Source: Thermomonas aquatica (GTDB taxonomy: Bacteria; Pseudomonadota; Gammaproteobacteria; Xanthomonadales; Xanthomonadaceae). Taken from it: a stretch of DNA of 64,000 bases. Of this stretch, positions 2,176 through 18,175 are shown in pieces; position 1 is the stretch's first letter; each line of letters begins with the position of its first letter. The notes under the pieces were generated by a model, which saw only the letters and a program-made list of their open reading frames with translations, ran no database searches and was not told the origin of the DNA. Where the stretch lies: positions 62,001 to 126,000 of the forward strand of contig NZ_CP040871.1 in the NCBI RefSeq assembly GCF_006337105.1, given 5' to 3'. A program made the translations under genes and the position numbers.

Positions 2176-3186
2176 ATGAAGGTCCTGGTCACCGGCACCG
2201 CCGGGTTCATCGGCTCCCACCTGGCCCATCGCCTGCTCGACCGCGGCGACGAGGTCGTCGGGTTCGACAACCTCAACGACTACTACGACGTCACCCTGAA
2301 GCAGGCACGGCTGGCGCGGCTGCAGGCGCGCGCCGGTTACACCCACGTGGCCGGCGACCTCGCGGACCGTGCCGCCGTCGAAGCCGCCTTCGCCGCCTAC
2401 AAGCCGCAGCGCGTGGTCAACCTCGCCGCGCAGGCCGGGGTGCGCTACGCGGCGGAGAACCCGCACGTGTACGTGCAGAGCAATGTGGTCGGCTTCCTGC
2501 ACGTCCTCGAAGGTTGCCGCCACCACGGCGTCGAGCACCTGGTGTATGCCTCCACCTCGTCGGTCTATGGCGCCAACACCGCGATGCCCTTCAGCGAGCA
2601 CGCCTCTGCGGAGCACCCGCTGACGCTGTACGCGGCGAGCAAGAAGGGCAACGAGCAGATGGCCCACAGCTACAGCCACCTGTATGGCATCCCCACTACC
2701 GGACTGCGCTTCTTCACGGTGTACGGCCCGTGGGGTCGCCCGGACATGGCGCTGTTCCTGTTCACCCGCGCGATCCTCGATGGCAAGCCGATCCGCGTGT
2801 TCAACCATGGTCGGCACAAGCGCAGCTTCACCTACGTCGACGACATCGTCGAAGGCGTGGTGCGCACGCTCGACCAGGCGCCGGGCAAGAACCCGGCCTG
2901 GGACAGCGCCAGGCCCGACCCCGCCAGCAGCGGCGTCGCCCCGTACCGGCTCTACAACATCGGCAACGAGCAGCCGGTGGAATTGCTCCGCTACATCGAG
3001 GTGCTGGAGGACTGCCTGGGCCGGAAGGCGCAGATGGAACTGCTGCCGCTGCAGGCGGGCGACGTGCCCGACACCGAGGCCGACGTCTCGGACCTGATCG
3101 CCGACGTGGGCTACCGCCCGGTGGTGCCGGTGGAGACCGGGGTGGCGCGTTTCGTGGAGTGGTACCGGGGTTATTACGGCGCCTGA
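2176..3186 (+). CDS. NAD-dependent epimerase, UDP-glucuronate 4-epimerase type
   Basis: A 336-residue extended SDR enzyme. The NAD-binding GTAGFIGSH motif is at residues 7-15, the catalytic pair appears as YAASK near residue 156, and the conserved SFTYVDDI is near 217. The segment [16 protein letters not shown] after the second beta strand is typical of UDP-glucuronate 4-epimerases, which make UDP-galacturonate for surface polysaccharides. A short gap after the acetyltransferase leaves room for its own promoter. Its last 13 bp overlap the end of the convergent nucleotidyltransferase-like gene. Confidence 0.88.
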
Positions 3187-4304
3187 TCGCCATCCTCGCC
3201 TGCGGGGGTACTGGCGCCCGGGAAGCGGTCCAGCAGGCGCGCGCCTCCGTACAGGACGAAGGCAGCCATGACCCGCCCGCTCGACTCGGTGCCGGCCCAG
3301 AAGACGAGGCTGCGGCGGACCAGCGGGCGATCCTGCGCAGGGGCCGGGTGCAAGGGATGGTCGGGCGCAGCGATACGGTCGAGTGCGTGCCGTCGCAGTG
3401 CGCCGATGCGGCGGCCGAGGGCGTCGATGCGCGCCTCGAGCGCGGCAGCACGGGCAGGATCCAGCTCGCGCAACGCCAGGCAGTGCAGCGCCTGCCGCAG
3501 CGCGGCGAACAAGGCAGGTCGCAGGTGGTGCCTGCGTGCGCGTTCCTGCAGCGCGAGCCAGTCGGCATCCGCCATCCCGTCGACGAAGCGCAGGAGATCG
3601 AGGTACTCGTGCAATGGCCGGTGCATGCCGCTGCGTGCGACGTGCAGGGCGATCATGCAGGCGCTGTCATGGGCATCCGGGATGCGGAGGCCGTCGCGGC
3701 TCTCGCGGCTGCCGAGGATCGAGCGGGTCAGCGAGGTGCACATCGGGGGTTCGGTGACCCGGGCATGGATGTCGAGGTTCTCGTAGGTGGGGCCTTCGCC
3801 GCGCCACACCATCCAGCCTTTGCTGAGCCACCGGGTCAGGCGCGAACCCATGGGTGGCGACCGGAATCCGCGGCGGGCGAGGAACGCGCGGAATGCGTCG
3901 GCCTCTGCTTGCGGCACGATGAGGTCGTAGTCGGACAGGGGACGCGTCTCACGGGTCTCTGGCCAGCGGGCATGGATGGCGCCGCCCTTGAACAGCACCG
4001 GCGAGAATCCCGCCGTACGTGCCGAGGCGAGCGTTTCGCGCAGGCGCTCCCAGCGCCGCGCGATCCCGGCCGAAAGATGCATGCCGGCCATGGCGGCCTC
4101 GCGCGGTGCCTGCATCCCATGGCGCGCGCGCAGGTTGGCCCAGGTCGCCCCGAGCCCGCTGCGCTGCATGCTGTGCACGGAGGGCAGCGCGTGCAGCCAG
4201 GTGGGATCCCCGCTGGCCATCGCCAGGTAGCAGGCGCCTGCCAGCCGGCGCACGCCATCATCGTCTGCACTGGCCGCAACGATCGGGGAGGGAGTGCGTG
4301 TCAT
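3174..4304 (-). CDS. Nucleotidyltransferase-fold family protein
   Basis: A 376-residue protein with the signature of the putative nucleotidyltransferase family often called NTP_transf_5: LFKGGA at residues 104-109 followed by [10 protein letters not shown] at 121-130, with Asp125 and Asp127 as likely metal ligands. The rest is helical and His/Arg-rich. Members of this family are recurrently found beside PqqD-like, HprK-like and peptide-export genes (established neighbourhood knowledge). Such genes lie only about 4.5 kb away here, so it may be an outlying part of the same system. It is divergent from manC with a shared 104 bp upstream region. The real substrate is unknown. Confidence 0.7.
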
Positions 4305-5857: not shown

Positions 5858-7528
5858 ATGCGCACCGATGACCTCCCGCCGCCCGACGCCGACGTGCGCG
5901 GGATCTTCGCCAGCCTGTTGCGGCCGCACGCGAAGACGCTGGCCCTCACCGCGTGCCTGCTGCTTGCGCAAAGCCTGGCGATGCTCGGGCTGCCTTGGGC
6001 CGCGGGACGCGTTTCCGCGGCCCTGGTGTCGGCGCAAGGCGTGGCGCCATGGCTGTGGGCGGTGTTCGGGCTGGTCGCCTTGCAGGCGGGCTTGTCGTGG
6101 TGGGTGGCGGTGCGGATACAGGACACCGCGACCGGCATGGTGGCCGACGGCAGCGGTCGCCTGTTCGCGCATCTGCAGGCGTTGCCGCTGCCCTGGCACC
6201 AGGCGCGCCGTCGTGGCGACATCCTGGCGCTGCTGACGGAGGACATCGACCGCCTGGGTTGGTTCCTCGGCAGTACCCTGGCGTCGGTGCTGCCGTTGCT
6301 GTTCACCTGCATCGGCGCGCTGGGCATGATGCTGTGGATCGCCCCGGCGCTCGCGTTGCCGGTCGCGGTGCTGGTGCCGCTGGGATGGCTGGGGTTCAAG
6401 CTGCTGGGGCGTCGCTTGCGCCCGCTCGGCCGGCACTTGGCCGATGCCTACGCGCAGCGCGCGGCACAGGCGGAGGAGGCGCTGGCGCTGCTGCCGCTGG
6501 CCAAGGCCTTCGTGGCCACGCCGCGCGCTGTGCAGCGCTTCCGCGGGCAGCTTGCGCAGGTGCGTGCGCTCGAGCGTCGGCTCGGGCGCTGGGAAGCGGC
6601 GATCCCGCCGCTGGTTCGGCTGCTCGCCTCCGCGCTGGTCCTGGGGCTGCTGTGGCTGGCGGCGGGTCGGGTCGCGGCGGGGACACTGGCGGTGGCGGAC
6701 CTGGTCAGCCTGATGTTGTACGGCTTGCTGCTGGCGCAACCGGTCGGCGAGCTCGCGGGCGTGTGGGGCCAGTGGCAATCGGCCCGCGGTGCCGCCGAGC
6801 GCATCGCGCGCGCGCTGGCCACGGCGCCCGAGCCCCGCGGCGGGACGCGCCTCCCGTCCGCGGCGCGCGGCGAGATCGCCTTCGAGGCGGTGTCGTTCGC
6901 CTACCCGGGGGGCGAGCCGGTGTTGCAGCGCCTCGACTTGCGCATCCGCGCCGGCGAGACGGTGGCGGTGACCGGCGCCAACGGCGCGGGCAAGAGCACC
7001 TTGCTGCACCTGCTGCTGCGGTTCGCGGATCCGGACGCGGGCCGCATCCTGTTCGACGGAACCGACCTGCGCGCGTTGCCGCTGGATTGGCTGCGGTCGC
7101 AGGTCGGCTGGGTGTCGCAGCAGGTGCTGCTGGCGAATGCAAGCATCGGCGAGAACATCGCCTACGGGCGCCCGGGGGCCAGCCAGGCCGAGATCGAGGC
7201 GGCGGCCCGCCTGGCGCGCGCCGATGGCTTCATCGCGGCGTTGCCGGCGGGGTATGCGACGGCCGTCGGCGACGATGGGGTGCGCCTCTCCGGCGGCCAG
7301 CGCCAGCGGATCGCGTTGGCGCGCGCGTTGCTCCTGGATCCGCCGGTACTGGTGCTCGACGAGGCCACCGCGATGTTCGACCCGGCCGGCGAGGCGGAAT
7401 TCGTCGCCGCCTGCCGCGAAGGGCTGCGCCATCGCACGGTCCTGCTGGTGACCCACCGGCCGGCCAGCCTCGCGCTGGCCGATCGCGTGCTCCTGCTCGA
7501 GCGCGGGGGCTTGCGCGAGGCGGTCTGA
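5858..7528 (+). CDS. ABC exporter, fused permease and ATPase
   Basis: A 556-residue half-transporter. The first 290 residues hold about six membrane segments. The ATPase domain then shows Walker A GANGAGKST (373-381), signature LSGGQRQR (about 477), Walker B VLVLDEA (about 497) and the H-loop His near 533. It has no N-terminal C39 peptidase domain. Single-polypeptide exporters of this layout move lipids, drugs or peptides, and many RiPP loci use such a gene. The position between manC and wecA could mean glycan-related export, and the nearby peptide-maturation operon makes peptide export an alternative. The sequence alone does not decide. Confidence 0.85.
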   Translation: MRTDDLPPPDADVRGIFASLLRPHAKTLALTACLLLAQSLAMLGLPWAAGRVSAALVSAQGVAPWLWAVFGLVALQAGLSWWVAVRIQDTATGMVADGSGRLFAHLQALPLPWHQARRRGDILALLTEDIDRLGWFLGSTLASVLPLLFTCIGALGMMLWIAPALALPVAVLVPLGWLGFKLLGRRLRPLGRHLADAYAQRAAQAEEALALLPLAKAFVATPRAVQRFRGQLAQVRALERRLGRWEAAIPPLVRLLASALVLGLLWLAAGRVAAGTLAVADLVSLMLYGLLLAQPVGELAGVWGQWQSARGAAERIARALATAPEPRGGTRLPSAARGEIAFEAVSFAYPGGEPVLQRLDLRIRAGETVAVTGANGAGKSTLLHLLLRFADPDAGRILFDGTDLRALPLDWLRSQVGWVSQQVLLANASIGENIAYGRPGASQAEIEAAARLARADGFIAALPAGYATAVGDDGVRLSGGQRQRIALARALLLDPPVLVLDEATAMFDPAGEAEFVAACREGLRHRTVLLVTHRPASLALADRVLLLERGGLREAV

Positions 7529-7603
7529 TCTGTATCGTGGCGACACGCCATCCGCGGCGTGTCATGGCCTGCGGAATTCCTACGTTTTCCTGCGGGAGTG
7601 CCA

Positions 7604-8668
7604 GTGTTCCGGGGCTTCGATCCGACCAGCGCCGTGGCCGCCTTCGTGTTGGCCGCCCTGTTGCCGTGGTGGCTGGAGCCAGCGGCGCGTCGCCTGGACC
7701 TGATGGACTATCCCAAGGGGCGCAAGGACCATGAGCGCCCGACCCCGGTCACCGGCGGCCTGGCGATGGCGATCGCCAGTATCCTGGCCTACTGGGCCGC
7801 GCCCAACCTGACGCCATCGATCCAGGCGTTCTGCATCGCCACCGTGCTGCTGGTGGCGGTCGGCCTGTGGGACGACAAGCACGACCTGCGCTGGTACTGG
7901 CGGGTCCTGGCGCAGGTCGTCGCGGCGCTGGTGGTGATCTTCTGGGGCGGCGTGCGGGTGGAGCAGCTGGGGCCGTTGTTCGGCCTCGGGCAGACCTCGC
8001 TCGGGTTCCTGTCGGTGCCGTTCACGGTGTTCGCGATGGTCGGCATCATCAATGCGATGAACATGATCGACGGCGCGGACGGCCTGGCCGGGATGCTCGG
8101 GCTGGCGGCGCTGGCGATGCTCTGCGCGGCCTCGGTCTATGCCGGCAACCTGGTGCTGGCCGAGCGCGTGGCGGTGCTGTGCGGCGCCCTCGCCGGATTC
8201 CTGGTGTGGAACCTGCGCTTCCCGTGGCGTCCGCGCGCGCGGGTGTTCATGGGCAATGCGGGCAGCGGTTTCCTGGGCTTGGTGATCGCCTGGGTCGCGT
8301 TCCGGCTGACCCAGAACGATGGCCACCCGGTGAACCCGGTGCTGGCGCTGTGGCTGCTGCCGATCCCGGTGATGGACACCCTGGTGCTGATCGTGCGTCG
8401 CCTGCAGGAGGGGCGTTCGCCGTTCGCCGCGGGCCGCGACCACATCCACCACATGATGCAGGACGCCGGCTTCGGGCCCACGCGTGCGGCCTTCTGGCTC
8501 ACGGTCTTCAGCCTGGCCTGCGGCCTGGTGGTGGGGCAGGCGATGCGCCTGGACGTGCCGAACCCGCTGCTGCTGGCCGCCTACATCGCCTTGTGCGTGG
8601 GCTGGTACCTGCTGACCCGCGACCGGACGCGCGCGGTCGCGTTCTTCCGGCGCTTGCGCCGGCCCTGA
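7604..8668 (+). CDS. wecA: WecA-like undecaprenyl-phosphate sugar-1-phosphate transferase (copy 1)
   Basis: A polytopic MraY/WecA-family transferase that starts glycan assembly by placing a GlcNAc-1-phosphate-type sugar on undecaprenyl phosphate. Diagnostic motifs are DDKHDLRWYW, NAMNMIDGADGLAG and the WecA-type HIHH in GRDHIHHMMQDAGF. About ten hydrophobic segments are visible. I prefer the GTG at 7604, with GGGAG five bases upstream, because homology with the second copy begins there; a GTG at 7559 would add 15 unconserved residues. It is about three quarters identical to the gene at 14483-15610. It converges on the radical SAM gene, with only 6 bp between stop codons. Confidence 0.93.
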   Translation: MFRGFDPTSAVAAFVLAALLPWWLEPAARRLDLMDYPKGRKDHERPTPVTGGLAMAIASILAYWAAPNLTPSIQAFCIATVLLVAVGLWDDKHDLRWYWRVLAQVVAALVVIFWGGVRVEQLGPLFGLGQTSLGFLSVPFTVFAMVGIINAMNMIDGADGLAGMLGLAALAMLCAASVYAGNLVLAERVAVLCGALAGFLVWNLRFPWRPRARVFMGNAGSGFLGLVIAWVAFRLTQNDGHPVNPVLALWLLPIPVMDTLVLIVRRLQEGRSPFAAGRDHIHHMMQDAGFGPTRAAFWLTVFSLACGLVVGQAMRLDVPNPLLLAAYIALCVGWYLLTRDRTRAVAFFRRLRRP

Positions 8669-8674
8669 CCGCGG

Positions 8675-9763
8675 TCAGGCCACCAGCACCTGCAGCGGGA
8701 TCTCGCGGCCCTGCTTGCGTTGCAGGTTCTTCGACGGCACCCCGGTGCGGGCGAAGGATTTCTCGCAGTCCTGGATCGACGGTCCGCGCATGTTGCCCTC
8801 CAGGTAGGCCAGCCCCGGGCAGCGGGTGCAGCTGCTGCCGTGCACGCAGCTGGAGCAGCCCTCGAGGTCGCTGACCCGGATCGCGCGCACGTCGTTGAGT
8901 TGCGGCGAGTGCTTCCAGATGTCGATGAAGGCCTGCTCGCGCACGTTGCCCACCTTGTAGGGGAACTGCACGCAGGGGAACACGTCGCCGTAGGGCGAAA
9001 CGTAGCAGGCGGTGTGGCCGGCGCTGCAGGGCAGGGTCTTGTAAGCCTCTTCCAGTGGCGTGGGACCGCTGGGAGGTGCGAGCAGGCGCTCCACCTGGTC
9101 GCCGAGCAGGGAGGTGTCGTGCATGATCCCGGCAAGCCGGGCCGGATCCATGTTGAGGTCGACGATGCCGCGGTCGCCATCCATCATCGGGGTGATGGTG
9201 GCGTCCACGGTATAGCCAACACCCATGTCGTCGGCAAGCGCCTGCACCTGCTTGTAATGGTCGGCGTTCTGCGCCATCAACACATTGGCCAGAGACACCT
9301 TGACGCCGGCGTCGCGGAGATAGCGGATCCCTTCGATCGTGCGTTTGAAGGAGCCGGGCAGCTTGGTGATCTCGTCCTGTGTGGCGGCATCGTGCGAATA
9401 CAGGCTGATCTGCACAGAATCCACGCCCAATTCGGCGATTCGCCTGGCTTTCGCTTCCCGGATCATCACTGCGTTCGTCTTCAGCTTCACCGAGAACTGC
9501 AGCTTGCGCGCATGTTCAACGATGGCGAAAAGGTCCTGGCGCATGAAGATCTCGCCGCCGCTCAGGGTCAGGAAGAACACACCGGCGGCGGACAACTGAT
9601 CCAGCAGGTCCAGCATTTCGGACGTGGTCATCTCGCCATGGTCTTCATGGTCGAGGTAGCAATGCACGCAGCGCTCGTTGCAGCGATAAGTCAGATCGAG
9701 CTGCACGCTGAGCGGGATGCCCAGCTCCAGCGCGCGCGTGCCCATCTGGTGCATCAGGCTCAT
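8675..9763 (-). CDS. Radical SAM/SPASM enzyme, PqqE-like
   Basis: A 362-residue enzyme with the radical SAM cluster motif CNERCVHC (Cys28, Cys32, Cys35) and the SAM-binding LSGGE segment near 68. A C-terminal SPASM domain follows: a first Cys in PCSAGHTACYVSPYGDVFPC, then CSSC, CTRC and a final DCE. This is the pattern of enzymes that modify ribosomally made peptides with auxiliary iron-sulfur clusters. The start at 9763 forms an ATGA overlap with the PqqD-like gene; an upstream ATG at 9844 would add 27 unconserved residues. It is the last gene of the minus-strand operon. PqqE-like peptide modification is the best call; the chemistry is unknown. Confidence 0.92.
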   Translation of the reverse strand: MSLMHQMGTRALELGIPLSVQLDLTYRCNERCVHCYLDHEDHGEMTTSEMLDLLDQLSAAGVFFLTLSGGEIFMRQDLFAIVEHARKLQFSVKLKTNAVMIREAKARRIAELGVDSVQISLYSHDAATQDEITKLPGSFKRTIEGIRYLRDAGVKVSLANVLMAQNADHYKQVQALADDMGVGYTVDATITPMMDGDRGIVDLNMDPARLAGIMHDTSLLGDQVERLLAPPSGPTPLEEAYKTLPCSAGHTACYVSPYGDVFPCVQFPYKVGNVREQAFIDIWKHSPQLNDVRAIRVSDLEGCSSCVHGSSCTRCPGLAYLEGNMRGPSIQDCEKSFARTGVPSKNLQRKQGREIPLQVLVA

Positions 9764-10068
9764 GGCGACGATCCCTGGTCCCCGAATGGCCGATCCGACA
9801 GGCGAACGATGCCATGCGCGGCGAGGCCTTCGACTAGCTCGCATGCGTCCCGCATGGCGGTGTCGGCATCCATCTCGTAGCGCGTGCAGATGTCGCGCGC
9901 CACGATGTCCGACAGCGGGGTGATCCCGTCCGCCGCGTTCCAGAGGATCGCCGCGGTTTCGTTGAGGCTGAACAATGCCGATTCTTTCGCCGACATGATC
10001 ATCAGTTCGTCGCCGATGCGGCGCGCCGCGACGTTCTCTTCGCGCAACAGGTAGGTCGGGTTGCTCAT
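9760..10068 (-). CDS. PqqD-like peptide chaperone (RiPP recognition element)
   Basis: A 102-residue PqqD-family protein. It has the usual order: short basic N-terminus, a beta hairpin around RRIGDELMIM, then SLNETAAILWNAADG, then helices ending in LAAHGIVRL. PqqD-type domains bind the leader of a precursor peptide and deliver it to a radical SAM partner. Here that partner follows directly, with an ATGA overlap at 9760-9763, and the HprK-like gene precedes with another ATGA overlap at 10065-10068. This is close to the arrangement described for so-called HPr-rel-A systems, in which PqqD-like and HprK-like proteins co-occur. Confidence 0.88.
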   Translation of the reverse strand: MSNPTYLLREENVAARRIGDELMIMSAKESALFSLNETAAILWNAADGITPLSDIVARDICTRYEMDADTAMRDACELVEGLAAHGIVRLSDRPFGDQGSSP

Positions 10069-10907
10069 GCTTGGCTGCCGATCAGGTCCCAGACGCGACT
10101 ATCGGGGACGAAGGTGAGTCTGCGCACCGGTACGCGCGCGGCCAGCGCGATCGCGTTGTCGAAGACGCGTGTAGTCAACGCATCGTCGCGGGCGAAGTAC
10201 AGAATGTTGGCCATCAATGCACGCACTGCTTGCGCTGGCGAAAACGGATCAACGCGGTTTTCCGGACCCTGTGCCAGCAGGAAGATTCCGGCCAGCGGTG
10301 CGCTCAGGTTTTCGCCGGGCCGGCCCAATTCGCCAGAGAATGGCGTGCCATGCGCGGAGTAGAGGCCATCGGTTGCACGTATGAACGACATCTCGTCGGT
10401 CAGGATATGCGCATCCGGCGGACACAGGCGCGAAATGGTGGTCTTGCCCGCACCGGAGACGCCGGTGAACACGAAGGCGCGCCCACCCCAGGCCACGCTG
10501 GAGGCATGCATGAGCATGCCGCCCTGTTCCGCCAGGATCAGCGTGTGCAGGATGCGAATCACCGAATCGAGCGAATACGGGCTCGGCACCATGCGCGCAT
10601 GCCCATGGCGCAGGCGAGGATCCCACTGGGCGAAGAAATCGCCGCGGCGCACTTGCCACAGGTGACCAGCGCGGGTCACCTGCACTTCATCGGCATGGGC
10701 ATCCACTGCTTCGTCGTCGCCATCAGGGAATGGCGTCAGCTCGATGTCGAATACGTGATCGGGTTGCGCCACATGGCCCAGAAAGCCCCGGAAGCGCCCG
10801 GCCATTGCGGCGACGAAGTCGGGCGAATCGGTACGCAGGCGTACCCACAGGCCGCCGATACCGATGTCCATCTCGCGTGCAGCGGTGGCAATGGCGTGGG
10901 CGTTCAT
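10065..10907 (-). CDS. HprK-related kinase-like P-loop protein
   Basis: A 280-residue protein resembling the C-terminal half of HPr(Ser) kinase. The P-loop is GVSGAGKTT (residues 149-157), preceded by MLMHASSVAWGGRAFVF and followed by the Asp-Glu pair in ILTDEMSF near 171. No PTS phosphocarrier genes are nearby, so sugar-transport regulation is unlikely. Such HprK-related proteins are known to travel with PqqD-like proteins and small peptides, where they may phosphorylate or adenylate a partner (inference). The start at 10907 gives an ATGA overlap with the upstream signal-peptidase-like gene. An upstream extension of about 105 codons in the same frame is shadow sequence of that gene. Confidence 0.82.
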   Translation of the reverse strand: MNAHAIATAAREMDIGIGGLWVRLRTDSPDFVAAMAGRFRGFLGHVAQPDHVFDIELTPFPDGDDEAVDAHADEVQVTRAGHLWQVRRGDFFAQWDPRLRHGHARMVPSPYSLDSVIRILHTLILAEQGGMLMHASSVAWGGRAFVFTGVSGAGKTTISRLCPPDAHILTDEMSFIRATDGLYSAHGTPFSGELGRPGENLSAPLAGIFLLAQGPENRVDPFSPAQAVRALMANILYFARDDALTTRVFDNAIALAARVPVRRLTFVPDSRVWDLIGSQA

Positions 10908-11377
10908 GCGGCCAACCGGACAAGCACAGGCATGCGGTTCAATAGCCGATGCGCAGCATCGAAACGCTGGATCAGCCAGCGCGCGGCGCGTTGCCGGCGC
11001 AGCCAGTAGCGGCCGCCGGCCGGAAGATTGCGCAAGCCACGTTCCTGGCCCACCAATACGCCGAGTAGAGATGCAGTGGCAGCAGGTTCGTCTGTCGCGG
11101 CCAAGGCATCGCCACGGGTCGTCAATAGCGCGCCCTCGCATGCGACCAGTCGGTGAGCCACCAGTCCCTGCGACCGGCGCAGCAGAACCACCTGCCCGGG
11201 TTGCGCCTGATCGGCGCTGCATGCGCGGAAGGTGAGCAGATCGCCCGGCGCGATGGCCGGCAGCATGCTACTGCCGGTGGCACGCATACGCAGAAAACCA
11301 AACTGGCGCAGGGTGTCCTGCGCCAGTTCGATCCGTACATTGGCTGTGGTCGTTTCCACAACCCGGTTTGCACTCAC
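10904..11377 (-). CDS. S24/S26-type signal-peptidase-like serine protease
   Basis: A 157-residue protein with the core motifs of S26 peptidases: RATGSSMLPAIAPGD with the Ser-Met pair at 37-38, then VAHRL with His75, then LLTTRGDA with Asp90. His in place of the usual bacterial Lys matches the archaeal/SipW-like Ser-His-Asp type. No membrane segment is evident, which is unusual for a signal peptidase. The GTG at 11377 is chosen because it overlaps the stop of the peptide gene as GTGA; an ATG at 11434 would run deep into that gene. A role in cutting a leader peptide is plausible but not shown. Confidence 0.75.
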   Translation of the reverse strand: MSANRVVETTTANVRIELAQDTLRQFGFLRMRATGSSMLPAIAPGDLLTFRACSADQAQPGQVVLLRRSQGLVAHRLVACEGALLTTRGDALAATDEPAATASLLGVLVGQERGLRNLPAGGRYWLRRQRAARWLIQRFDAAHRLLNRMPVLVRLAA

Positions 11378-11559
11378 GAATTGCTCGCCACTCGCCGGCA
11401 CTGATCCTGCGACTGGCCACGCACCTTGCCGCATGCCAAGGCCATGGTCTCAAACACGCTTTCGCTGCTGAAGGCCGGCTTGATATAGGGCAGGCGATCA
11501 GTCGTCGCGGCGGCTGGGGAGACCATCTCCTGGGTTGCGTTCTGCTGCTTCGTGGTCAT
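11374..11559 (-). CDS. Candidate RiPP-type precursor peptide (61 aa)
   Basis: A 61-residue peptide starting MTTKQQNAT. The first 22 residues are polar and leader-like. Then comes LPYIKPAF (23-30), then a VFETMALACGK stretch with Cys43, and a short tail containing Cys54 and ending ASNS. The Y-x-KP element followed by an E-x-x-A-L-A-C-G-K-like block recalls small peptides seen beside radical SAM or HprK-related genes in other bacteria (recollection, not checked). Its stop overlaps the start of the protease gene as GTGA, and it begins 30 bp after the secreted propeller-like gene. The ribosome binding site is weak. No signal peptide is seen. Confidence 0.7.
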   Translation of the reverse strand: MTTKQQNATQEMVSPAAATTDRLPYIKPAFSSESVFETMALACGKVRGQSQDQCRRVASNS

Positions 11560-11589
11560 GTGGGTCTCTGCTGGATGTGTTGGGCGAAC

Positions 11590-14355
11590 TTACTGCAAAC
11601 CGCTCTGGCTGGCCTGAACGGCGTTGCCGGTCACACCGCCCTGGGTGAAATACACCTGCGAGGTGCCCGTTTCCGTATCCGGGCGCACGTTGTCCACCAC
11701 GATACCGCCGGTGCCGCCAGGCACCTGGGTCGCCGGCGCGGCGCCGTTGCCGGCGGTCACCGCCAGTGCGGCGGTGGGCGTGACGCTGGTGTCCCAGGTG
11801 ATGTCCTGCATGTAGGTGCCGCCGGTTGCACCGTCCACATTGCCGGTCTGGCTGACGTTGGTGAGCGATGCGGTCACCGTGTCGGGGGTCACATTACCCT
11901 GCGCCACGCGGGTGATGAGGATGTCGCAGGCTGCGCCTGGATTGAAGCCCGTGTCGCAACCGCCAGTGGCCACCGCGTTGTAGCCAGTCAGTGCATCGAT
12001 GGCATTCACCAAGGCAGTGCGATCCGCACTGCGATTACCAGATGTGCTGAAGTGGGTCCCCGCAGTCAGAACCGTGCCCTCCAGATTGATACTACCGGCA
12101 CCGGGCGAAGGCATGCCTTGGTAGGTTGGATTCCACCATTGACCAGTGTAAGTGCCCGCTGCAATCCGTAGCGTCCAGGTCTCGCTGCTGCCCACCACGG
12201 TCACCTGTTGATTCAGGCGGTACATGTACAGACAGGCGCCGCCCGCGTAGGTGCCGTTGCCGCAGCCGGCGGCATTGCCCCAGCTTGCGGTGCTGGCATA
12301 CAGATACTCGAAACCGGTGTGGGGATTCTTGATGACCGTGACGGGGGAGAGATTCTGCAGGTTGTCGATGGATCCGTTCAGGCCGGTACCCGCGTCGCCG
12401 TCGATGTAGCGGTCGCGCACGCCGAATGTCGGACCGATGATCGAGCTGCCCAATTCGCCGTTCGTGGTGATCGGCACCTTCCAGAGGGTGGCGTAGAAGG
12501 TATTGTCCGGGAGCCCACCGGTGATGTACATGTTGCCGGTGGTGCCGTCCCCGTTGTAGTAGGCGTCATCGAACCCGCCGGCGTACAACGCGCGCGTCAA
12601 GCCGTTGCCGCGACCGAGCCACTGGCGCGTGCCGGTGTTGTTGGCAGCGAACAGGCGATCGAAGCGGAAGACCGCACGGCAGCCGTCGATCTCGTTGTTG
12701 AATGCATCGCAGCGGTTGGCATCGGTGAAGTTGGAGGTGTTGTCGTTGAAGGTGAAGGCATAGACGCTGCCGGTGCGCAGGTCGATGATCGGCGATTCGC
12801 GCAGGCCCGTGGTCCCGTCCCGGGCCAGCTTGCCGCTGGTGGCTTCGGTGGTGCCGTTGCTGGCCAGGATGCGGTGCAGCTTGCCGCCCACGGTTCCGGT
12901 ACCGCTCTGCGTGCCCACGAACACGCGGCCGTTGTAGTCGAACACCGGCGAAGACAACTTCATGCCCAGTTCGACCGCCTTCGGGAAACCGCCGCTGGTG
13001 ATTTCCCGCGGGTTGGCGCCCTGGAACACGTCCGCGAACTTGTGCAGGATGCCGTTGCCGTCGCCCACCCACAGGATGTCGCCAACGTAGTCCACGAACG
13101 GCGAGGAATACGTCGGGACGGTGGTGGTGGTGACGTTGTTGGCGCCAGCCGCGGTGCTGAACGAAATCGTGGTGTAACAGCCGCCCGCGTCGGAGCAACC
13201 CCGGTAGGCTGCATTGGATACAAGCGTGGGGGAGGCGGGATTCGCCGCGGTTCCTGAGCCGCTGCCCGGCTTCAGCAGTACCAGTTGCAGGGTGTTGCCG
13301 TTGCGCTGGACGAAGGCGACCTGCTTGCCGCCATCCAGATAGGACAACACGGGCGAGGTCTCGGTGATGTAGCCGGTGCCGGTGTTGTAGGCCCACATCA
13401 CGTTGGGCGCATTGGTGTTGGTGCGTCCCGCGTTGCAGGTGGTGTTGTACAACTGGTTGAAGGCGAGGACGGTCGGTTGCCCCGCGCTGGCGGTGCCGCT
13501 GTACGTGCGGGTGAGGGTGATGTTGGACAGCGTCGATGCGATCGAGCTGTTATTGATGTCGCCGGCGGTATTGGAAATGAGAGTGACCGTCGTGCCGGCG
13601 CCCGCGGCGCGGAAGCCGGTCTGGCCTTCCCAGCGGGTGATGGCGTTGCGCAGGTTCGTGGCGGTTGCGGTGGCGTCTGCCCCGATCTGGAAATTGAGCC
13701 CGGTATTGCTGCTGGTGCTGGCGGTCAATTGCACCCGGCGCGAACCTGCCAGGCCAATGGTGACGGTCTGGCCGTTGGTCGGATTGTTGCTGAAGCTGCC
13801 GCTCCATTGCTCTTGCGCGGTGCCGCTTTGACTGGCGCCGGCAGCATTGGTGGTGTAGACCACGAAGTCGCCGCTGCAACTGGGCGGGGCGAAGATGTCC
13901 AGGTTGTACTTGGCCGGGAAGATGCCCGGTGCGGCGCGGCCGCCTTGTCCATCGGCACCGCCGCCGAGCACATTGCTCCAGTCGCGCAGGACGGTTTCCG
14001 AATTGCCATTGGGCTGGCCGCCTTGTCCGCCGCCGGGTTGAGGCCGCGTGCGATCACGCGTGCGACCTGTCTGGGCGGGAGAGGTGGTCTTCGCCAGCGC
14101 GGCGACACGCGGGGTTTCGTTCTCGATCCGACGTAGCACGGATGCGACATAGCGTGGGTCGCGGTAGAGTCGGGGGATATCGGCACTGCGGCCTGCACGG
14201 TCAAGTTCGTCCGGCGTCATCGGCTTGGCGGTGATGACTGCGCGGCTGCTCCAGTCCTGCGGCGCGCCGATGGGTGCTTCCTGTGCCTGAGCCAGACCGA
14301 CGCCGGCAATGCCCATCATCAGGACAGCGGCCTTCCTGCAACGAATATGCTTCAT
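11590..14355 (-). CDS. Large secreted protein with propeller-like repeats
   Basis: A 921-residue exported protein. The start at 14355 gives a clean signal peptide (basic MKHIRCRK, hydrophobic core, AQAQ cut site near residue 25) behind an AGGGG Shine-Dalgarno sequence. Residues 100-130 are Gly/Gln/Pro-rich. The middle contains repeats such as DILWVGDGNGILHKF, SSPVFDYNGRVFVGTQSG and ESPIIDLRTGSVYAF, which look like PQQ/YVTN-type beta-propeller blades. The rest is Thr/Ser/Asn/Gly-rich, with cysteine pairs suited to extracellular disulfides. It is the first gene of the operon that continues with the candidate peptide and its maturation genes. Function unknown; a surface or outer-membrane role is inferred. 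Confidence 0.72.
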   Translation of the reverse strand: MKHIRCRKAAVLMMGIAGVGLAQAQEAPIGAPQDWSSRAVITAKPMTPDELDRAGRSADIPRLYRDPRYVASVLRRIENETPRVAALAKTTSPAQTGRTRDRTRPQPGGGQGGQPNGNSETVLRDWSNVLGGGADGQGGRAAPGIFPAKYNLDIFAPPSCSGDFVVYTTNAAGASQSGTAQEQWSGSFSNNPTNGQTVTIGLAGSRRVQLTASTSSNTGLNFQIGADATATATNLRNAITRWEGQTGFRAAGAGTTVTLISNTAGDINNSSIASTLSNITLTRTYSGTASAGQPTVLAFNQLYNTTCNAGRTNTNAPNVMWAYNTGTGYITETSPVLSYLDGGKQVAFVQRNGNTLQLVLLKPGSGSGTAANPASPTLVSNAAYRGCSDAGGCYTTISFSTAAGANNVTTTTVPTYSSPFVDYVGDILWVGDGNGILHKFADVFQGANPREITSGGFPKAVELGMKLSSPVFDYNGRVFVGTQSGTGTVGGKLHRILASNGTTEATSGKLARDGTTGLRESPIIDLRTGSVYAFTFNDNTSNFTDANRCDAFNNEIDGCRAVFRFDRLFAANNTGTRQWLGRGNGLTRALYAGGFDDAYYNGDGTTGNMYITGGLPDNTFYATLWKVPITTNGELGSSIIGPTFGVRDRYIDGDAGTGLNGSIDNLQNLSPVTVIKNPHTGFEYLYASTASWGNAAGCGNGTYAGGACLYMYRLNQQVTVVGSSETWTLRIAAGTYTGQWWNPTYQGMPSPGAGSINLEGTVLTAGTHFSTSGNRSADRTALVNAIDALTGYNAVATGGCDTGFNPGAACDILITRVAQGNVTPDTVTASLTNVSQTGNVDGATGGTYMQDITWDTSVTPTAALAVTAGNGAAPATQVPGGTGGIVVDNVRPDTETGTSQVYFTQGGVTGNAVQASQSGLQ

Positions 14356-14482
14356 AAGGTGAATCCCCCTGTGGTCAGCCCGCACAAAGCTTGAGGCCGG
14401 CCGATGATAGCACGAACTTTGTCACGAAAACAGTGAGATCGGTTGCCAGGCCGGGTAGAATGGCCTCGTCGTCCGGCTTGCC

Positions 14483-15610
14483 GTGACAGCCCACGGGATT
14501 CGCGTGTTGCACGGATTCAACCCTACGTCCGCGTTCGTCGCTTTCGCGGTCACGACCTTGATGCTTTGGCTGATGCAGCCGGTGGCCCGCAGACTGAACC
14601 TGCTCGACCACCCGCAGGGCCGCAAGGACCATGAGCATCCTACCCCCGTCACCGGCGGCCTGGCCATCCTGGTCGGTTGCCTGGTCGCCTTCTTCTTCGT
14701 GCAGACCAGCAGCCAGACCTTGCAGGCGTTCTGCGTGGCGGCAGTCTTGCTGGTCGCGGTCGGCCTGTACGACGACCTGCACGACTTGCGTTGGTATTGG
14801 CGTGTCCTGGCCCAATCCGCGGCGGCCCTGATCATCATTTTCTGGGGCGGCGTCCAGGTGGAACAAATCGGACCGGTGTTCGGCTTGGGCGAGATGTCGC
14901 TAGGCTGGCTGTCGGTGCCGTTCACCGTGTTCGCCACGATCGGCATCGTCAATGCGATGAACATGATCGATGGCGCCGATGGCCTGGCCGGCTTGCTGGG
15001 GCTGGCGGCGCTGGCGATGCTGTGCGCGGCATCGATCTATGCGGGCAACGAATTGCTGGCGATGCGCCTGTCCGTCCTGTGCGGTGCGCTGGCAGGCTTC
15101 CTGGCGTGGAACATCCGCCTGCCGTGGCGCCCGCGCGCGAAGGTGTTCCTGGGCAATGCGGGCAGCGCCTTGCTGGGCCTGGTGATCGCCTGGGTGTCGT
15201 TCCGCCTCACCCAGAACCCGGGGCACCCGGTGAACCCGGTGCTGGCGCTGTGGCTGTTGCCGATCCCGGTGATGGATTGCCTGGTGTTGATCGTGCGCCG
15301 CCTGCAGGAAGGCCGCTCGCCGTTCTCGGCGGGGCGCGACCATATCCATCACCTGATGCAGGACGCCGGCTTCGGTCCGACCCGGGCGGCGCTGTGGCTG
15401 ACGGTGTTCAGCCTCCTCAGCGGGTTGCTGGTCGGGCAGGCGATGCGGCTGGACGTGCCGCATCCGCTCCTCTTGGCCGCATTCCTGCTGCTGTGCGTCG
15501 GCTGGTACCTGCTGACCCGGGATCGCGCACGGGCGGTGGCGTTCTTCCGCGCATTGCGCCGCGCACCGCCGCAAGGGCTCGAAACCGGGCCGGTCGATCG
15601 CCAGCCCTGA
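14483..15610 (+). CDS. wecA: WecA-like undecaprenyl-phosphate sugar-1-phosphate transferase (copy 2)
   Basis: A second polytopic WecA-family protein. DDLHDLRWYW, NAMNMIDGADGLAG and HIHH are all conserved, and long stretches are identical to the gene at 7604-8668 (about three quarters of residues by eye). The annotated start is the GTG at 14483; a GTG seven codons later aligns with the preferred start of copy 1. Fifteen or so C-terminal residues are unique to this copy. The two genes point the same way and bracket the minus-strand peptide operon, so a tandem duplication with an inserted or retained cassette is likely. Both copies keep the catalytic motifs and look functional. Confidence 0.92.
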   Translation: MTAHGIRVLHGFNPTSAFVAFAVTTLMLWLMQPVARRLNLLDHPQGRKDHEHPTPVTGGLAILVGCLVAFFFVQTSSQTLQAFCVAAVLLVAVGLYDDLHDLRWYWRVLAQSAAALIIIFWGGVQVEQIGPVFGLGEMSLGWLSVPFTVFATIGIVNAMNMIDGADGLAGLLGLAALAMLCAASIYAGNELLAMRLSVLCGALAGFLAWNIRLPWRPRAKVFLGNAGSALLGLVIAWVSFRLTQNPGHPVNPVLALWLLPIPVMDCLVLIVRRLQEGRSPFSAGRDHIHHLMQDAGFGPTRAALWLTVFSLLSGLLVGQAMRLDVPHPLLLAAFLLLCVGWYLLTRDRARAVAFFRALRRAPPQGLETGPVDRQP

Positions 15611-15622
15611 ACCGGGCCGGCC

Positions 15623-16474
15623 TTACTCCAGCTGCTCCTGCGCATAGGCCGCGTCCAGCGCTTCCATCGCATCCAGCGGCTTGCACTTGCCGGCTTTCTC
15701 GTAGGCGGTGGCGGCGGCGTCCTCGTTGCGGTTCTCGTCCAGCAGCAACAGCACGTTGCCGTGCTCGATGTGGGCGATCGGCGAGGCCGGGGTCAGCTTG
15801 ACCGCTTCCTTGATGTGCTTCTCCGCTTCGCCGGCCTTGGCGCCGTAGGTCAGGCCGCCGATCATCGCGCCGATCTTGTTGATGATCTCGGCGTGGTACA
15901 GGGCCAGCGCGGTATGCGCCTCGGCGTGCTTGGGTTCGAGGTCGAGGGTGGCATCCAGCGAGGCGCGGACCTTGCCGGCGATGCCCATCTTCAGCGCCTT
16001 GGCGATGCTCAGGCCCTGGCTGTAGCGGCCCAGCGCGAAGGCGTGGCGGTAATGGCTGTTGGCCTCGTCCGGCAGCGCCTTGATCGCGGCTTCGGCGATC
16101 TTCGAGGCTTGTTCGTAACGCTTCAGCTGCTCGGCTTCGTCGTCGACCAGGTAGGTGGCGTGGATGCCGATCGCCTTGATCGCGACCGAGGCGCCGACCG
16201 GGCCGAGTTTCTCGCCGGCATCGAAGGCGGCCTTGAAATCGCCGCGATGGAAGGCGCGCCAGGCATCCTGCAGGGCTTCGGCCAGGGCATCGGCATCGAG
16301 CTTGGGCGCGGCCTTGCCGGCGGCCTTCAACAGCGCGGCGGCGCGCTTGGCGTCGGGGAAGGGCTCGCAATCGCCGGCGTGCAACTTGGGCCAGGCTTTC
16401 TTCAGCGCATCGCCTGCGTAGGCATAGGCCTTGGCATCGTGCGGAAACGCCGCCCAGTTCGATTTGGCCGCCAT
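15623..16474 (-). CDS. TPR-like repeat protein
   Basis: A 283-residue helical protein built of tetratricopeptide-like repeats. Segments of the type AEAHTALALYHAEI and ASPIAHIEHGNVLLLL recur in the second half, with Ala/Leu spacing typical of TPR helices. The start at 16474 is chosen for its GAGGGG ribosome binding site eight bases upstream; a longer open frame to 16780 has no conserved content. No signal peptide or membrane segment is seen, so a cytoplasmic scaffold role is likely. It ends 12 bp from the end of the convergent wecA copy 2. The partner is unknown. Confidence 0.7.
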   Translation of the reverse strand: MAAKSNWAAFPHDAKAYAYAGDALKKAWPKLHAGDCEPFPDAKRAAALLKAAGKAAPKLDADALAEALQDAWRAFHRGDFKAAFDAGEKLGPVGASVAIKAIGIHATYLVDDEAEQLKRYEQASKIAEAAIKALPDEANSHYRHAFALGRYSQGLSIAKALKMGIAGKVRASLDATLDLEPKHAEAHTALALYHAEIINKIGAMIGGLTYGAKAGEAEKHIKEAVKLTPASPIAHIEHGNVLLLLDENRNEDAAATAYEKAGKCKPLDAMEALDAAYAQEQLE

Positions 16475-16619
16475 CCGGATTCCCCTCGAGTCGATGTCGT
16501 AGGCGGTCAGCATCCCGCCATGCGCGCGTGCTGGCAAGGGGGATCGGTAGTGTGTTTGCTCGACAGCGCAACGGCAGGCTACGCGCATCGAATACCCCAC
16601 GTCCCCTACGGAGCCTGCC

Positions 16620-17048
16620 ATGGCCGCCATCAAGAAGAAGGCAACCCGCAAGAAGCTGCAGGCCACTGCGCTTGAACCGACCCCGCGCCACCTGTGGCTG
16701 GCGTCGCTCGGCATGCTGGTCGCCGCGCGTCGCGAATCGAAGGCCGCCGTGAAGCGTGCGGCGTCCAAGGTCGAGAACACCGTCGCGGATGCGCGTTACG
16801 CGATCCGCCGCGCCGAGGCGGACCTGCGCGCCGGCGTCGACGGCGTGCGCAGCCAGGTCGAGCCGAAGGTGTTGAAGCTCAGCGGTGAAGTCGAAGCGCG
16901 CCTGGCGCCGATCGTCGCCAAGCTGGGCCTTGCACCGAAAACCAAGCGCAGCGTGCGCAAGGCCCGCAAGACCGCGGCCAAGAAGCCGGTTGCCCGTCGC
17001 GCCGTGCGCAAGCCGGCCAAGCGCGTGGCGAAGAAAGCCGCGCGTTAA
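16620..17048 (+). CDS. Phasin-like protein with Lys/Ala-rich tail
   Basis: A 142-residue basic protein. Residues 20-95 contain LWLASLGMLVAARRESK and then an amphipathic helical stretch, resembling the N-terminal helix region of phasins, the proteins that coat storage granules. The last 35 residues are almost only Lys, Arg, Ala, Pro and Val, like the tails of AlgP/histone-H1-like proteins, and could bind DNA or acidic surfaces. Other storage-lipid genes follow within 10 kb. A nucleoid-associated role is the alternative. It ends at a hairpin shared with the convergent TetR gene. Confidence 0.65.
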   Translation: MAAIKKKATRKKLQATALEPTPRHLWLASLGMLVAARRESKAAVKRAASKVENTVADARYAIRRAEADLRAGVDGVRSQVEPKVLKLSGEVEARLAPIVAKLGLAPKTKRSVRKARKTAAKKPVARRAVRKPAKRVAKKAAR

Positions 17049-17076
17049 GTCCTGCCGATCTCCTGTCGGTACCCGG

Positions 17077-17102
17077 CAACGCCCTGCGCAAGCGGGGCGT
17101 TG
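17077..17102. terminator. Hairpin between convergent genes
   Basis: An 8-bp GC-rich stem (CAACGCCC with GGGCGTTG) and a 10-base loop lie between the phasin-like gene on plus and the TetR gene on minus. There is no strong T-tract on either side, so it is a weak or possibly bidirectional terminator. Confidence 0.5.
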
Positions 17103-17114
17103 TCGTATCCGCGA

Positions 17115-17741
17115 TCAGTCGAGGTAGGCGCGGGTCAGCGTGTTGAGATGCACGCGTTCCGCATCGCGCAGGAACGGCGCGATCAGCATCATCACCTGCA
17201 CGATGCCGTCGCGGATCGAGGCGCGCTCGTCCTTGTCGCCGCGGGCGGCGGCGTAGTTCATCCAAAAGGTGGCGATGACCAGGATGTTGGTCGCCGCGGC
17301 ATCCACCTCGTCGGCGGAGGCGCGCATCACCCCCGCCTGCACCAGTCCGCGCATGACCTGGTGGGCCTGTTCGTCGGCACGCTTGAGGATGCGCGCGAAG
17401 CGCATGCGCAGGCGGCGGTTGCGGGTCAGGATGTCGACCAGGTCGCGGTACAGGAAGCGGTAGTCCCAGATGCACTCGAACACCAGGTGCAACTGCAGCC
17501 ACACGTCCTCGAGGCCCGGCAGGCGGCCTTCCGGCGCGGTCAGGGCGGCATCCATGCGCGCCTCGTAACCACCGAACAGCTGCTCGATGATGTCGTCCTT
17601 GTTGCGGAAGTGGTAGTACAGATTGCCCGGGCTGATCTCCAGCTCGTCGGCGATGTGGTTGGTGGTGACGTTGGGCTCGCCCTGCGCGTTGAACATCGCG
17701 AGCGACGCATCCAGGATGCGCTGGCGGGTCTGGCGGGCCAT
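17115..17741 (-). CDS. TetR-family transcriptional regulator
   Basis: A 208-residue regulator. The DNA-binding domain occupies residues 1-50: RQRILDASLAMFNAQGEPNVTTNHIADELEI, then the recognition helix region SPGNLYYHFRNKDDII. The C-terminal ligand domain begins near residue 60 and has the aromatic-rich HLVFECIWDYRFLYRDL seen in TetR proteins that respond to lipids. It lies 13 bp downstream of the acyl-CoA-binding-protein gene and is probably cotranscribed. The pair is divergent from a fatty acyl-CoA reductase, suggesting that it senses acyl chains or acyl-CoA and controls that locus (inference). Confidence 0.9.
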   Translation of the reverse strand: MARQTRQRILDASLAMFNAQGEPNVTTNHIADELEISPGNLYYHFRNKDDIIEQLFGGYEARMDAALTAPEGRLPGLEDVWLQLHLVFECIWDYRFLYRDLVDILTRNRRLRMRFARILKRADEQAHQVMRGLVQAGVMRASADEVDAAATNILVIATFWMNYAAARGDKDERASIRDGIVQVMMLIAPFLRDAERVHLNTLTRAYLD

Positions 17742-17754
17742 CGTCGTCCTGCGC

Positions 17755-18027
17755 CTAGGCGGTCAGCTTCTTGACCAGGTCGACGTATTTCTTCATCGCA
17801 TCGTCCTGGCTGGTGCCGGCCAGCTTGGCCCAGGCCTCGTACTTGGCGGTGCCGACGAAATCGAAGAAGCCCGGCTTCGGCCCGCTGACGTCGCCCTCCG
17901 CACCTTGCTTGTACAGCCCGTACAGGCGCAGCAGGGTGTCGTTGTCCGGGCGCTCGGCCAGCGCATGCACGTCCTTGGCCGCCTGTTCGAACTTGGCCTT
18001 GAGATCGGACATCGCCTGCTTGGACAT
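17755..18027 (-). CDS. Acyl-CoA-binding protein
   Basis: A 90-residue ACBP. The family pattern is clear: FEQAAKDVHALAERPDNDTL, then LYGLYKQGAEGDVSGPKPGFFDFVGTAKYEAWAKL, with the ligand-contacting YGLYKQ Tyr and Lys and the KYEAW Tyr and Trp. ACBPs carry long-chain acyl-CoA in the cytoplasm. The ATG at 18027 has GGAGGAG eight bases upstream; an ATG five codons later is the alternative. Its position opposite a fatty acyl-CoA reductase suggests that it supplies that enzyme with acyl-CoA. Confidence 0.93.
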   Translation of the reverse strand: MSKQAMSDLKAKFEQAAKDVHALAERPDNDTLLRLYGLYKQGAEGDVSGPKPGFFDFVGTAKYEAWAKLAGTSQDDAMKKYVDLVKKLTA

Positions 18028-18175
18028 GGTATGGGCTCCTCCCTGTGGAGGGGGCATCAGAGCATGCGTCCCGGGAGGGGTCAATACGCAGGGGAATTGT
18101 TTGATCGCGCGGCCTCTGGCAACGTAGCGCATACAAGGCGCGCTTCGCGCCTGCAAACCTCCGAGGGGAGCGCGC

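Follow-up and report, generated by a model that had tools for sequence, protein, structure and literature searches.

A conserved operon joining a small peptide, an HprK-like kinase, and a radical SAM/SPASM enzyme in Thermomonas aquatica and Acidobacteriota: a proposed RiPP-like pathway

Some lasso peptides are tailored by HprK-like kinases. According to the available part of PMC9266682, PadeK, ThcoK, SyanK, and PsmK phosphorylate a C-terminal Ser and require a His-Lys-Asp-Asp motif, the Ser targeted by PadeK is described as "extremely conserved" where the kinase occurs, and a protein with a nucleotidyltransferase annotation, PsmN, is required for hexose addition to the phosphoserine. In the accessible portion of PMC10368454, the PqqD-type protein BsfB1 stimulates the kinase BsfK, and YxxPxL is a conserved leader motif of lasso peptides. 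W/Y/LxxP/L/I is one recognition type of the RRE (recognition element of RiPPs, ribosomally synthesized and post-translationally modified peptides) in the part of PMC12710340 at hand. Discrete lasso-type RRE proteins co-occur with radical S-adenosylmethionine (SAM) enzymes and cluster with the RREs of sactipeptides and ranthipeptides (PMC7470986, available part). Here, an operon that encodes a small peptide next to an HprK-like kinase, a PqqD-like protein, and a radical SAM/SPASM enzyme was analyzed in Thermomonas aquatica. The window, meaning the whole stretch of DNA analyzed, comprises 64,000 nucleotides (NZ_CP040871.1, positions 62,001 to 126,000), and genome-wide searches covered the 3.0-Mb single-contig genome to which it belongs.

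All six genes lie on the minus strand. In order of transcription, they encode a secreted beta-propeller protein (11590..14355), a precursor peptide of 61 residues (11374..11559, stop included), a soluble S26B-like serine protease (10904..11377), an HprK/PEPCK-fold kinase (10065..10907), a PqqD-like protein (9760..10068), and a radical SAM/SPASM maturase (8675..9763). The gap between the propeller gene and the peptide gene is 30 bases, and the last five genes are joined by four overlaps that read GTGA, ATGA, ATGA, and ATGA. Both the gene positions and the overlaps had been given by an earlier, sequence-only reading of this DNA and were borne out when the sequence was read again. The operon is likely to encode a RiPP-like pathway for a Cys-crosslinked, C-terminally phosphorylated peptide that would be freed by the S26B protease and would act with the secreted propeller.

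A scan of genome contigs with the radical SAM protein gave 56 loci. The set of 56 analyzed here includes the window and leaves out L057, whose identity is 27%, and L001, which duplicates the window. The radical SAM gene is present in all 56 loci, the HprK and PqqD genes in 55 each, the S26 gene in 52, the peptide gene in 49, and the propeller gene in 24. The order peptide, S26, HprK, PqqD, radical SAM/SPASM is kept on one strand in 44 loci, the window counted, and five loci hold all five genes in a different order (L047, L048, L050, L051, and L052). The 61-residue peptide, proposed as a gene on the sequence-only reading, is a real one that is conserved with the operon. Two of its 49 copies are broken: the L030 copy loses its frame in the tail, and the L054 copy has a stop within the leader; both were counted in the 49 and the 44. 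At seven loci the peptide is not among the genes; four of these (L008, L009, L017, and L056) end at a contig edge, and a search of the loci L037, L039, and L053 turned up no peptide. The closest relatives of the window's radical SAM protein are from Thermomonas and other Lysobacterales. In the radical SAM tree, the rows from Pseudomonadota cluster together, a grouping that leaves the direction of transfer unsettled.

The peptide was then searched for by profile. In 247 Acidobacteriota genomes, the first peptide profile gave matches in 11, some of them to far shorter peptides, and a profile of nine such shorter peptides matched 49; four of the 49 (G432, G482, G493, and G530) match through the first profile's own genes, so that 45 genomes were added, seven of them weakly (best E 5e-5 to 6e-4; G439, G452, G471, G473, G477, G561, and G639). 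With both profiles together, the peptide is found in 50 of the 247 genomes. Peptide and enzyme are both present in 46, the peptide only in 4, the enzyme only in 19 (E <= 1e-45), and neither in 178 (Fisher p ~8e-30, uncorrected for kinship); all five Acidobacteriota genomes with a close relative of the radical SAM protein (E <= 1e-170) carry the peptide. In the window's order, 398 genomes were searched, and the three convincing peptide carriers are the three with a close radical SAM relative; G104 has a distant radical SAM enzyme and no detected peptide. A peptide match in G176 (E 0.0027) sits inside a 446-aa frame and was taken as chance. The first profile, used by itself on 249 genomes of the window's phylum, matched one, the window's own. 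The gene set, its order, its conservation, the folds, and the co-occurrence are established, and the RiPP-like operon proposed from sequence is supported by the conservation and co-occurrence tests. The co-occurrence expected on that reading is seen in the 46 genomes with both genes, and the 19 genomes with the enzyme only argue against a strict link. That reading did not note the invariance of the C-terminal Ser, the resemblance to lasso-type kinase logic, the nucleotidyltransferase, or the branch with C25 proteases, which are described below.

The 49 intact peptides come from 47 loci (two each in L050 and L052; L030 and L054 excluded) and include 44 distinct sequences when counted from the Tyr onward; 44 of the 49 entered the alignment, in which Y25, P28, A40, L41, C43, K45, C54, and S61 are invariant. 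The leader spans residues ~1-42, and residues 43-61 are the proposed core. The last residue is Ser in 49/49 intact peptides, compared with 59/657 of the longer open reading frames (>=150 aa) of the same loci; in the window, the codon of this Ser61, a candidate phosphorylation site by analogy with lasso peptides, is at 11377..11379. After the last Cys there are seven residues in 40 peptides and six, eight, or nine in the remaining nine, with Ser still terminal. Every one of the 49 cores has exactly two Cys. The residue before C43 is Ala, Ser, Thr, or Gly in 47/49, and Ala at -3 of C43 is invariant, so that the stretch A-x-[A/S/T/G] before C43 resembles a signal-peptidase site in its sequence; an S26 protease is encoded next to it. 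The leader motif in the window is YxKPxF (Y25-I-K-P28-A-F30, 11470..11487; Y and P invariant), which may be the binding site of the PqqD-like (RRE) protein, judging from its letters. When 44 first-branch peptides were compared with NCBIfam, no lasso model matched and two stray single-member matches were returned; nine diverged peptides gave zero matches.

For the residue counts of the operon's enzymes, each locus contributed a single row, and rows that were short or weak were omitted. Kinase residues His134, Lys155, Asp171, and Glu172 are kept in 54/54 kinases, and the P-loop (residues 149-157) is encoded at 10463-10437. The structural model (predicted local distance difference test, pLDDT, 90) has the HprK/PEPCK fold. 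In family models the HprK assignment has matches below cut-off only and is supported by the residues and the modelled fold, and a profile of the kinase matched the putative lasso kinase of L004 with a probability of 96.7. Together, the terminal Ser and the HprK/PEPCK-fold kinase recall the tailoring of lasso peptides by kinases. The PqqD-like protein, a putative RiPP recognition protein, matches PF05402 above cut-off (48.1 bits); its best NCBIfam match is a lasso PqqD model, below that model's cut-off, and no other protein of the genome matches PqqD at E <= 0.001. Pfam Radical_SAM and SPASM are matched above cut-off by the maturase, C28, C32, and C35 and the SPASM residues C246, C264, C303, C306, C312, C315, and C333 are present in 53 or 54 of 54 rows, and the nearest solved chains are SkfB (4e-23) and PqqE (5e-18).

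A single small peptide with PqqD, a radical SAM/SPASM enzyme, and a protease is also the logic of pyrroloquinoline quinone (PQQ), and the peptide might be consumed to give a small molecule, as in PQQ and mycofactocin, with the kinase acting on another substrate. The mycofactocin radical SAM and PqqE models do match (135.1 and 113.4 bits), below their cut-offs of 265 and 381.35, as does the PqqD model (11.9 bits against 46). PqqA has a Glu/Tyr pair. The peptides described here have no invariant Tyr/Glu pair, their invariant core consists of C43, K45, C54, and the C-terminal Ser, and some genomes of the diverged branch have two or three peptides; conversion to a small molecule is improbable.

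Residues Ser37, His75, Asp90, and Asp96 of the S26 protein, which we take to be the catalytic residues of S26B proteases, are found in 51/51 rows. The NCBIfam matches sigpep_I_arch and sod_Ni_protease are weak and below cut-off, and no curated model was reached. The maximum 19-residue hydropathy is 1.2, so the protein has no transmembrane-like stretch. From the conserved residues and these sub-cut-off matches, it is proposed to be the leader peptidase.

The model of the propeller protein (pLDDT 67) matches 8-bladed propellers and BamB, the Foldseek list is headed by three phage tail complexes with poor TM-scores, and the N-terminus is signal-like as read by eye. The gene lies upstream of the peptide gene on the same strand in 24 of the 44 ordered loci, and from this position and the model the protein is proposed as the partner of the mature peptide. 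A different partnership was considered, in which the peptide would be crosslinked to serve as a small subunit of the propeller or as a cofactor built into it, and the bond formed by the radical SAM enzyme would turn it into a redox part of an enzyme outside the cell. The gamma subunit of quinohemoprotein amine dehydrogenase is such a small crosslinked subunit and served as the model. A small Cys peptide following the propeller gene in 24/56 loci would suit this arrangement, as would L050 and L052, which each pair two peptides with their own large secreted proteins (propeller-like by eye). The CxxCH haem motif is found in 0/22 propeller rows and Trp in 2/49 peptides, and these counts ruled out a subunit of the quinohemoprotein type; further, no propeller is detected in most loci, as counted below, and C25 proteases stand in its place in the diverged branch. 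The subunit reading as a whole is accordingly given little credence.

The neighborhood of the peptide varies. In L050 (11049-16585) and L052 (11049-16674), each of the two peptide copies is followed by its own large secreted protein, and Disaggr_repeat matched below cut-off in the one of these proteins tested. In an Acidobacteriota subgroup (L014, L024, L026, L028, L029, L030, L037, L040, L041, L043, and L046), an ATP-binding cassette (ABC)-type ATPase and permease pair replaces the propeller. Within this group, L030 has a broken peptide gene and none was found in L037; of the related loci, L054 likewise has a broken copy and L053 none that was found.

The diverged branch consists of the shorter peptides in Acidobacteriota, whose profile is homologous to the first (hhalign probability 98). 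Among 30 diverged peptides in 26 stretches, 28 end with Ser, the last residue being read only in peptides of fetched loci. Their neighbors are PqqD and radical SAM genes and often HprK. S26 was found in 2/26 stretches (L089 and L093), with a weak match in L169. A large secreted C25 (gingipain-family) protease is encoded in 15/26 stretches and adjoins the peptide in 14; PF01364 was confirmed in seven of the proteins, and the others were called with a profile built from four of these. The kinase was searched for in 15 diverged-branch genomes; the fetched stretch holds a kinase in two of them (those of L127 and L134) and lacks one in the other 13, and the genome of L141, also lacking one, was left out. 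HprK-like matches were obtained in 15/15, any of which may be an unrelated HprK/PEPCK-type gene, and in nine of the 15 the match is on the peptide's contig, 5 to 17 kb off, one being a fragment. Arg or Lys stands at -4 of the first Cys in 26/30 diverged peptides vs 2/49 peptides of the S26 branch (L019 and L038; by eye).

Gingipains cut after Arg or Lys. A dedicated secreted protease could be inhibited or activated by the modified peptide or could use it as a substrate; in the C25 branch, this protease would also remove the leader outside the cell at the Arg/Lys at -4. The adjoining C25 genes and the difference at -4 both speak for a role of this kind, and L062 encodes a subtilase-propeller fusion in the vicinity of PqqD, HprK, and radical SAM genes. 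The window operon is without a secreted protease, Arg is found also in peptides with no C25 in the fetched stretch, L091 and L144 have C25 and no Arg, and the related sequences are not independent, for which reasons a dedicated secreted protease is considered rather unlikely to be the explanation. The L062 protein (11402-16972) is 1857 aa long, with subtilase, fn3, and a C-terminal propeller, and no peptide was found near the PqqD, HprK, and radical SAM genes there. In L088, L125, L129, and L135, diverged peptides lie ~13-17 kb from the contig's kinase and radical SAM genes and adjoin small secreted-looking proteins of no assigned function.

For the RiPP-like pathway proposed here, we infer every chemical step, the cut site, the export, and the partnership with the propeller. 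Phosphorylation of Ser61, a bond at Cys43 and/or Cys54, a cut, and export are proposed because the kinase and the terminal Ser suggest tailoring as in lasso peptides, with a radical SAM/SPASM enzyme and the S26 protease occupying the places of the lasso cyclase and the B2 protease. The PqqD-like protein would hold the YxxPxF leader and present the precursor to two tailoring enzymes. One, the HprK-like kinase, would phosphorylate the side chain of the invariant C-terminal Ser61, as most of the studied lasso-peptide kinases do, and the phosphoserine may be further capped where a nucleotidyltransferase is present. The other, the radical SAM/SPASM enzyme, would use radical chemistry to form a bond within the core, with a thioether via C43 and/or C54 as the likeliest kind. 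The soluble S26B protease would cut A-L-[A/S] before C43 to give a core of ~19 residues (CGK...C...S), and the product would be exported, possibly via an ABC exporter. The mature peptide would then act with the secreted propeller encoded upstream and, in the diverged branch, with the secreted C25 proteases.

Several points weigh against this pathway. The related sequences are not independent, and kinship inflates all of the counts. According to the available part of PMC10368454, BsfK phosphorylates Ser3 and not the last residue, and its action is not reduced by Ala swaps of the Y and L in YxxPxL. The position of the second catalytic Asp of the lasso kinases is Glu in the operon kinase. The tie of Ser to the chain end rests on nine peptides because 40/49 keep the usual spacing between the last Cys and the Ser, which lowers confidence, and two diverged peptides end with Thr (L134) and Gln (L137) despite HprK-like genes in their genomes. 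Two of the 49 peptides have Arg before C43. A profile comparison of the peptide with one putative lasso precursor of L004 showed no homology, so the leader's link to lasso peptides is at the level of the motif. The top NCBIfam scores of the radical SAM protein are to two models of the haem pathway, NirJ2 and AhbD, and lie far under their cut-offs. No propeller was detected at 32/56 loci, and no peptide was detected in 19/65 genomes with a radical SAM relative.

In favor of the pathway, NTP_transf_5 homologues are present in the fetched flanks of 31/56 loci, a raw count uncorrected for their background frequency. The NTP_transf_5 gene immediately follows the radical SAM gene on the same strand in eight loci (L004, L009, L016, L021, L027, L031, L035, and L039) and immediately precedes HprK in four (L047, L050, L051, and L052), the rest of the 31 loci having it elsewhere or on the opposite strand; it also precedes HprK in the diverged locus L093. 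The window's NTP_transf_5 nucleotidyltransferase (3174..4304; PF14907, 59.2 bits vs a cut-off of 31.2) shares the strand of the operon, lies 4.4 kb past the radical SAM gene, and is a possible accessory member. A fused ABC exporter with membrane and ATPase parts (5858..7528, plus strand; PF00664, PF00005) is a weakly linked candidate for export of the peptide; close homologues adjoin the operon in L045 and L005. Two GT4/WecA-like genes on the plus strand, 76% identical over 356 residues, flank the operon (7559-8668 and 14483-15610), and its GC content is 64.4% vs 68.4% for the window. The flanking pair and the lower GC content look as if the operon had been inserted or carried in. The lower GC content and the rarity of the operon in the window's phylum fit horizontal transfer without proving it.

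Membership in described families was checked with models and searches. Lasso peptide membership was rejected: no cyclase was found near the operon, and a genome-wide search for the B2 transglutaminase-like protease (PF13471) found nothing at E <= 0.001. Asn_synthase is matched five times in the genome, each time outside the window; the closest of these genes (G000:C1:56873-57988) is ~13 kb away from the operon. In L004, what appears by eye to be a full lasso cluster (13807-19779) lies ~3-9 kb downstream of the operon homologue, with ABC, HprK-like kinase, B2-like, PqqD-like, and Asn-synthetase-like genes and two precursors ending in PS; of this cluster, the kinase and the nearby NTP_transf_5 gene were profile-checked. 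The SynChlorMet cassette, the named gene set that comes closest, is similar in having the HprK-like ScmC, the PqqD-like ScmD, and the radical SAM/SPASM ScmE and ScmF. That cassette carries two radical SAM enzymes and is not known to have a named precursor. Membership was rejected, as all NCBIfam scores are below the curated cut-offs (ScmC 42.7/125, ScmD 15.6/100, ScmE 108.3/400, and ScmF 85.1/400 bits), and the word SynChlorMet was not found in a full-text search of open-licence PubMed Central (PMC). The RRE proteins noted in PMC7470986, the closest published hint met with, may include relatives of the operon's PqqD-like protein; that text, in its available part, does not contain the words kinase, HprK, S26, signal peptidase, or Acidobacteria.

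The PQQ pathway (PqqA, PqqD, and PqqE) and the sactipeptide maturases (SkfB and StsB) likewise join a small peptide, a PqqD or RRE protein, and a radical SAM/SPASM enzyme, and the operon differs from them in having a kinase in the set and a peptide without the Glu/Tyr pair. The nickel superoxide dismutase (SOD) maturation protease is of the S26 type and exposes a new N-terminus. Its model gives 22.8 bits for the operon's S26 protein, with a cut-off of 63.25; by comparison, the latter has the conserved Ser and His, a proposed RiPP-like substrate, and no SOD in the operon.

There is a fair chance that the operon represents a new RiPP class. It is proposed tentatively that this class is broad in Acidobacteriota and that its product is a peptide crosslinked by the radical SAM enzyme and ending in a phosphoserine, which in some cases would carry a nucleotidyl or sugar cap. 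Such a peptide would be dedicated to a secreted protein, a propeller in one branch and a gingipain-family protease in the other, as its ligand, its inhibitor, or its surface anchor. Each part is of a known kind, and the combination looks undescribed: the full-text search of open-licence PMC, which may have missed a mention, returned no description of a lasso-type kinase/nucleotidyltransferase together with radical SAM/SPASM, a protease of the S26B or C25 type, and a propeller or protease that is secreted, nor did it return the pairing of a RiPP with secreted propellers and gingipain-type proteases. It would be an undescribed family of modified peptides in a phylum, Acidobacteriota, whose peptide products are little known. 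As far as the available parts of the sources describe them, kinase-tailored lasso peptides (paeninodin and pseudomycoidin) have in common with the operon a PqqD-type B1 protein, an HprK-like kinase, a YxxPxL-type leader, and a C-terminal Ser, and a nucleotidyltransferase occurs in one such case (PsmN) as it does near operon homologues. Unlike the lasso systems, the operon family has a radical SAM/SPASM enzyme with a protease of the S26B or C25 type, and the core of its peptide has two invariant Cys. On this comparison, the tail module of lasso kinase and nucleotidyltransferase seems to be portable and compatible with other core chemistry; if the operon does represent a new class, lasso-type tail chemistry would be joined in it with radical SAM ring chemistry.

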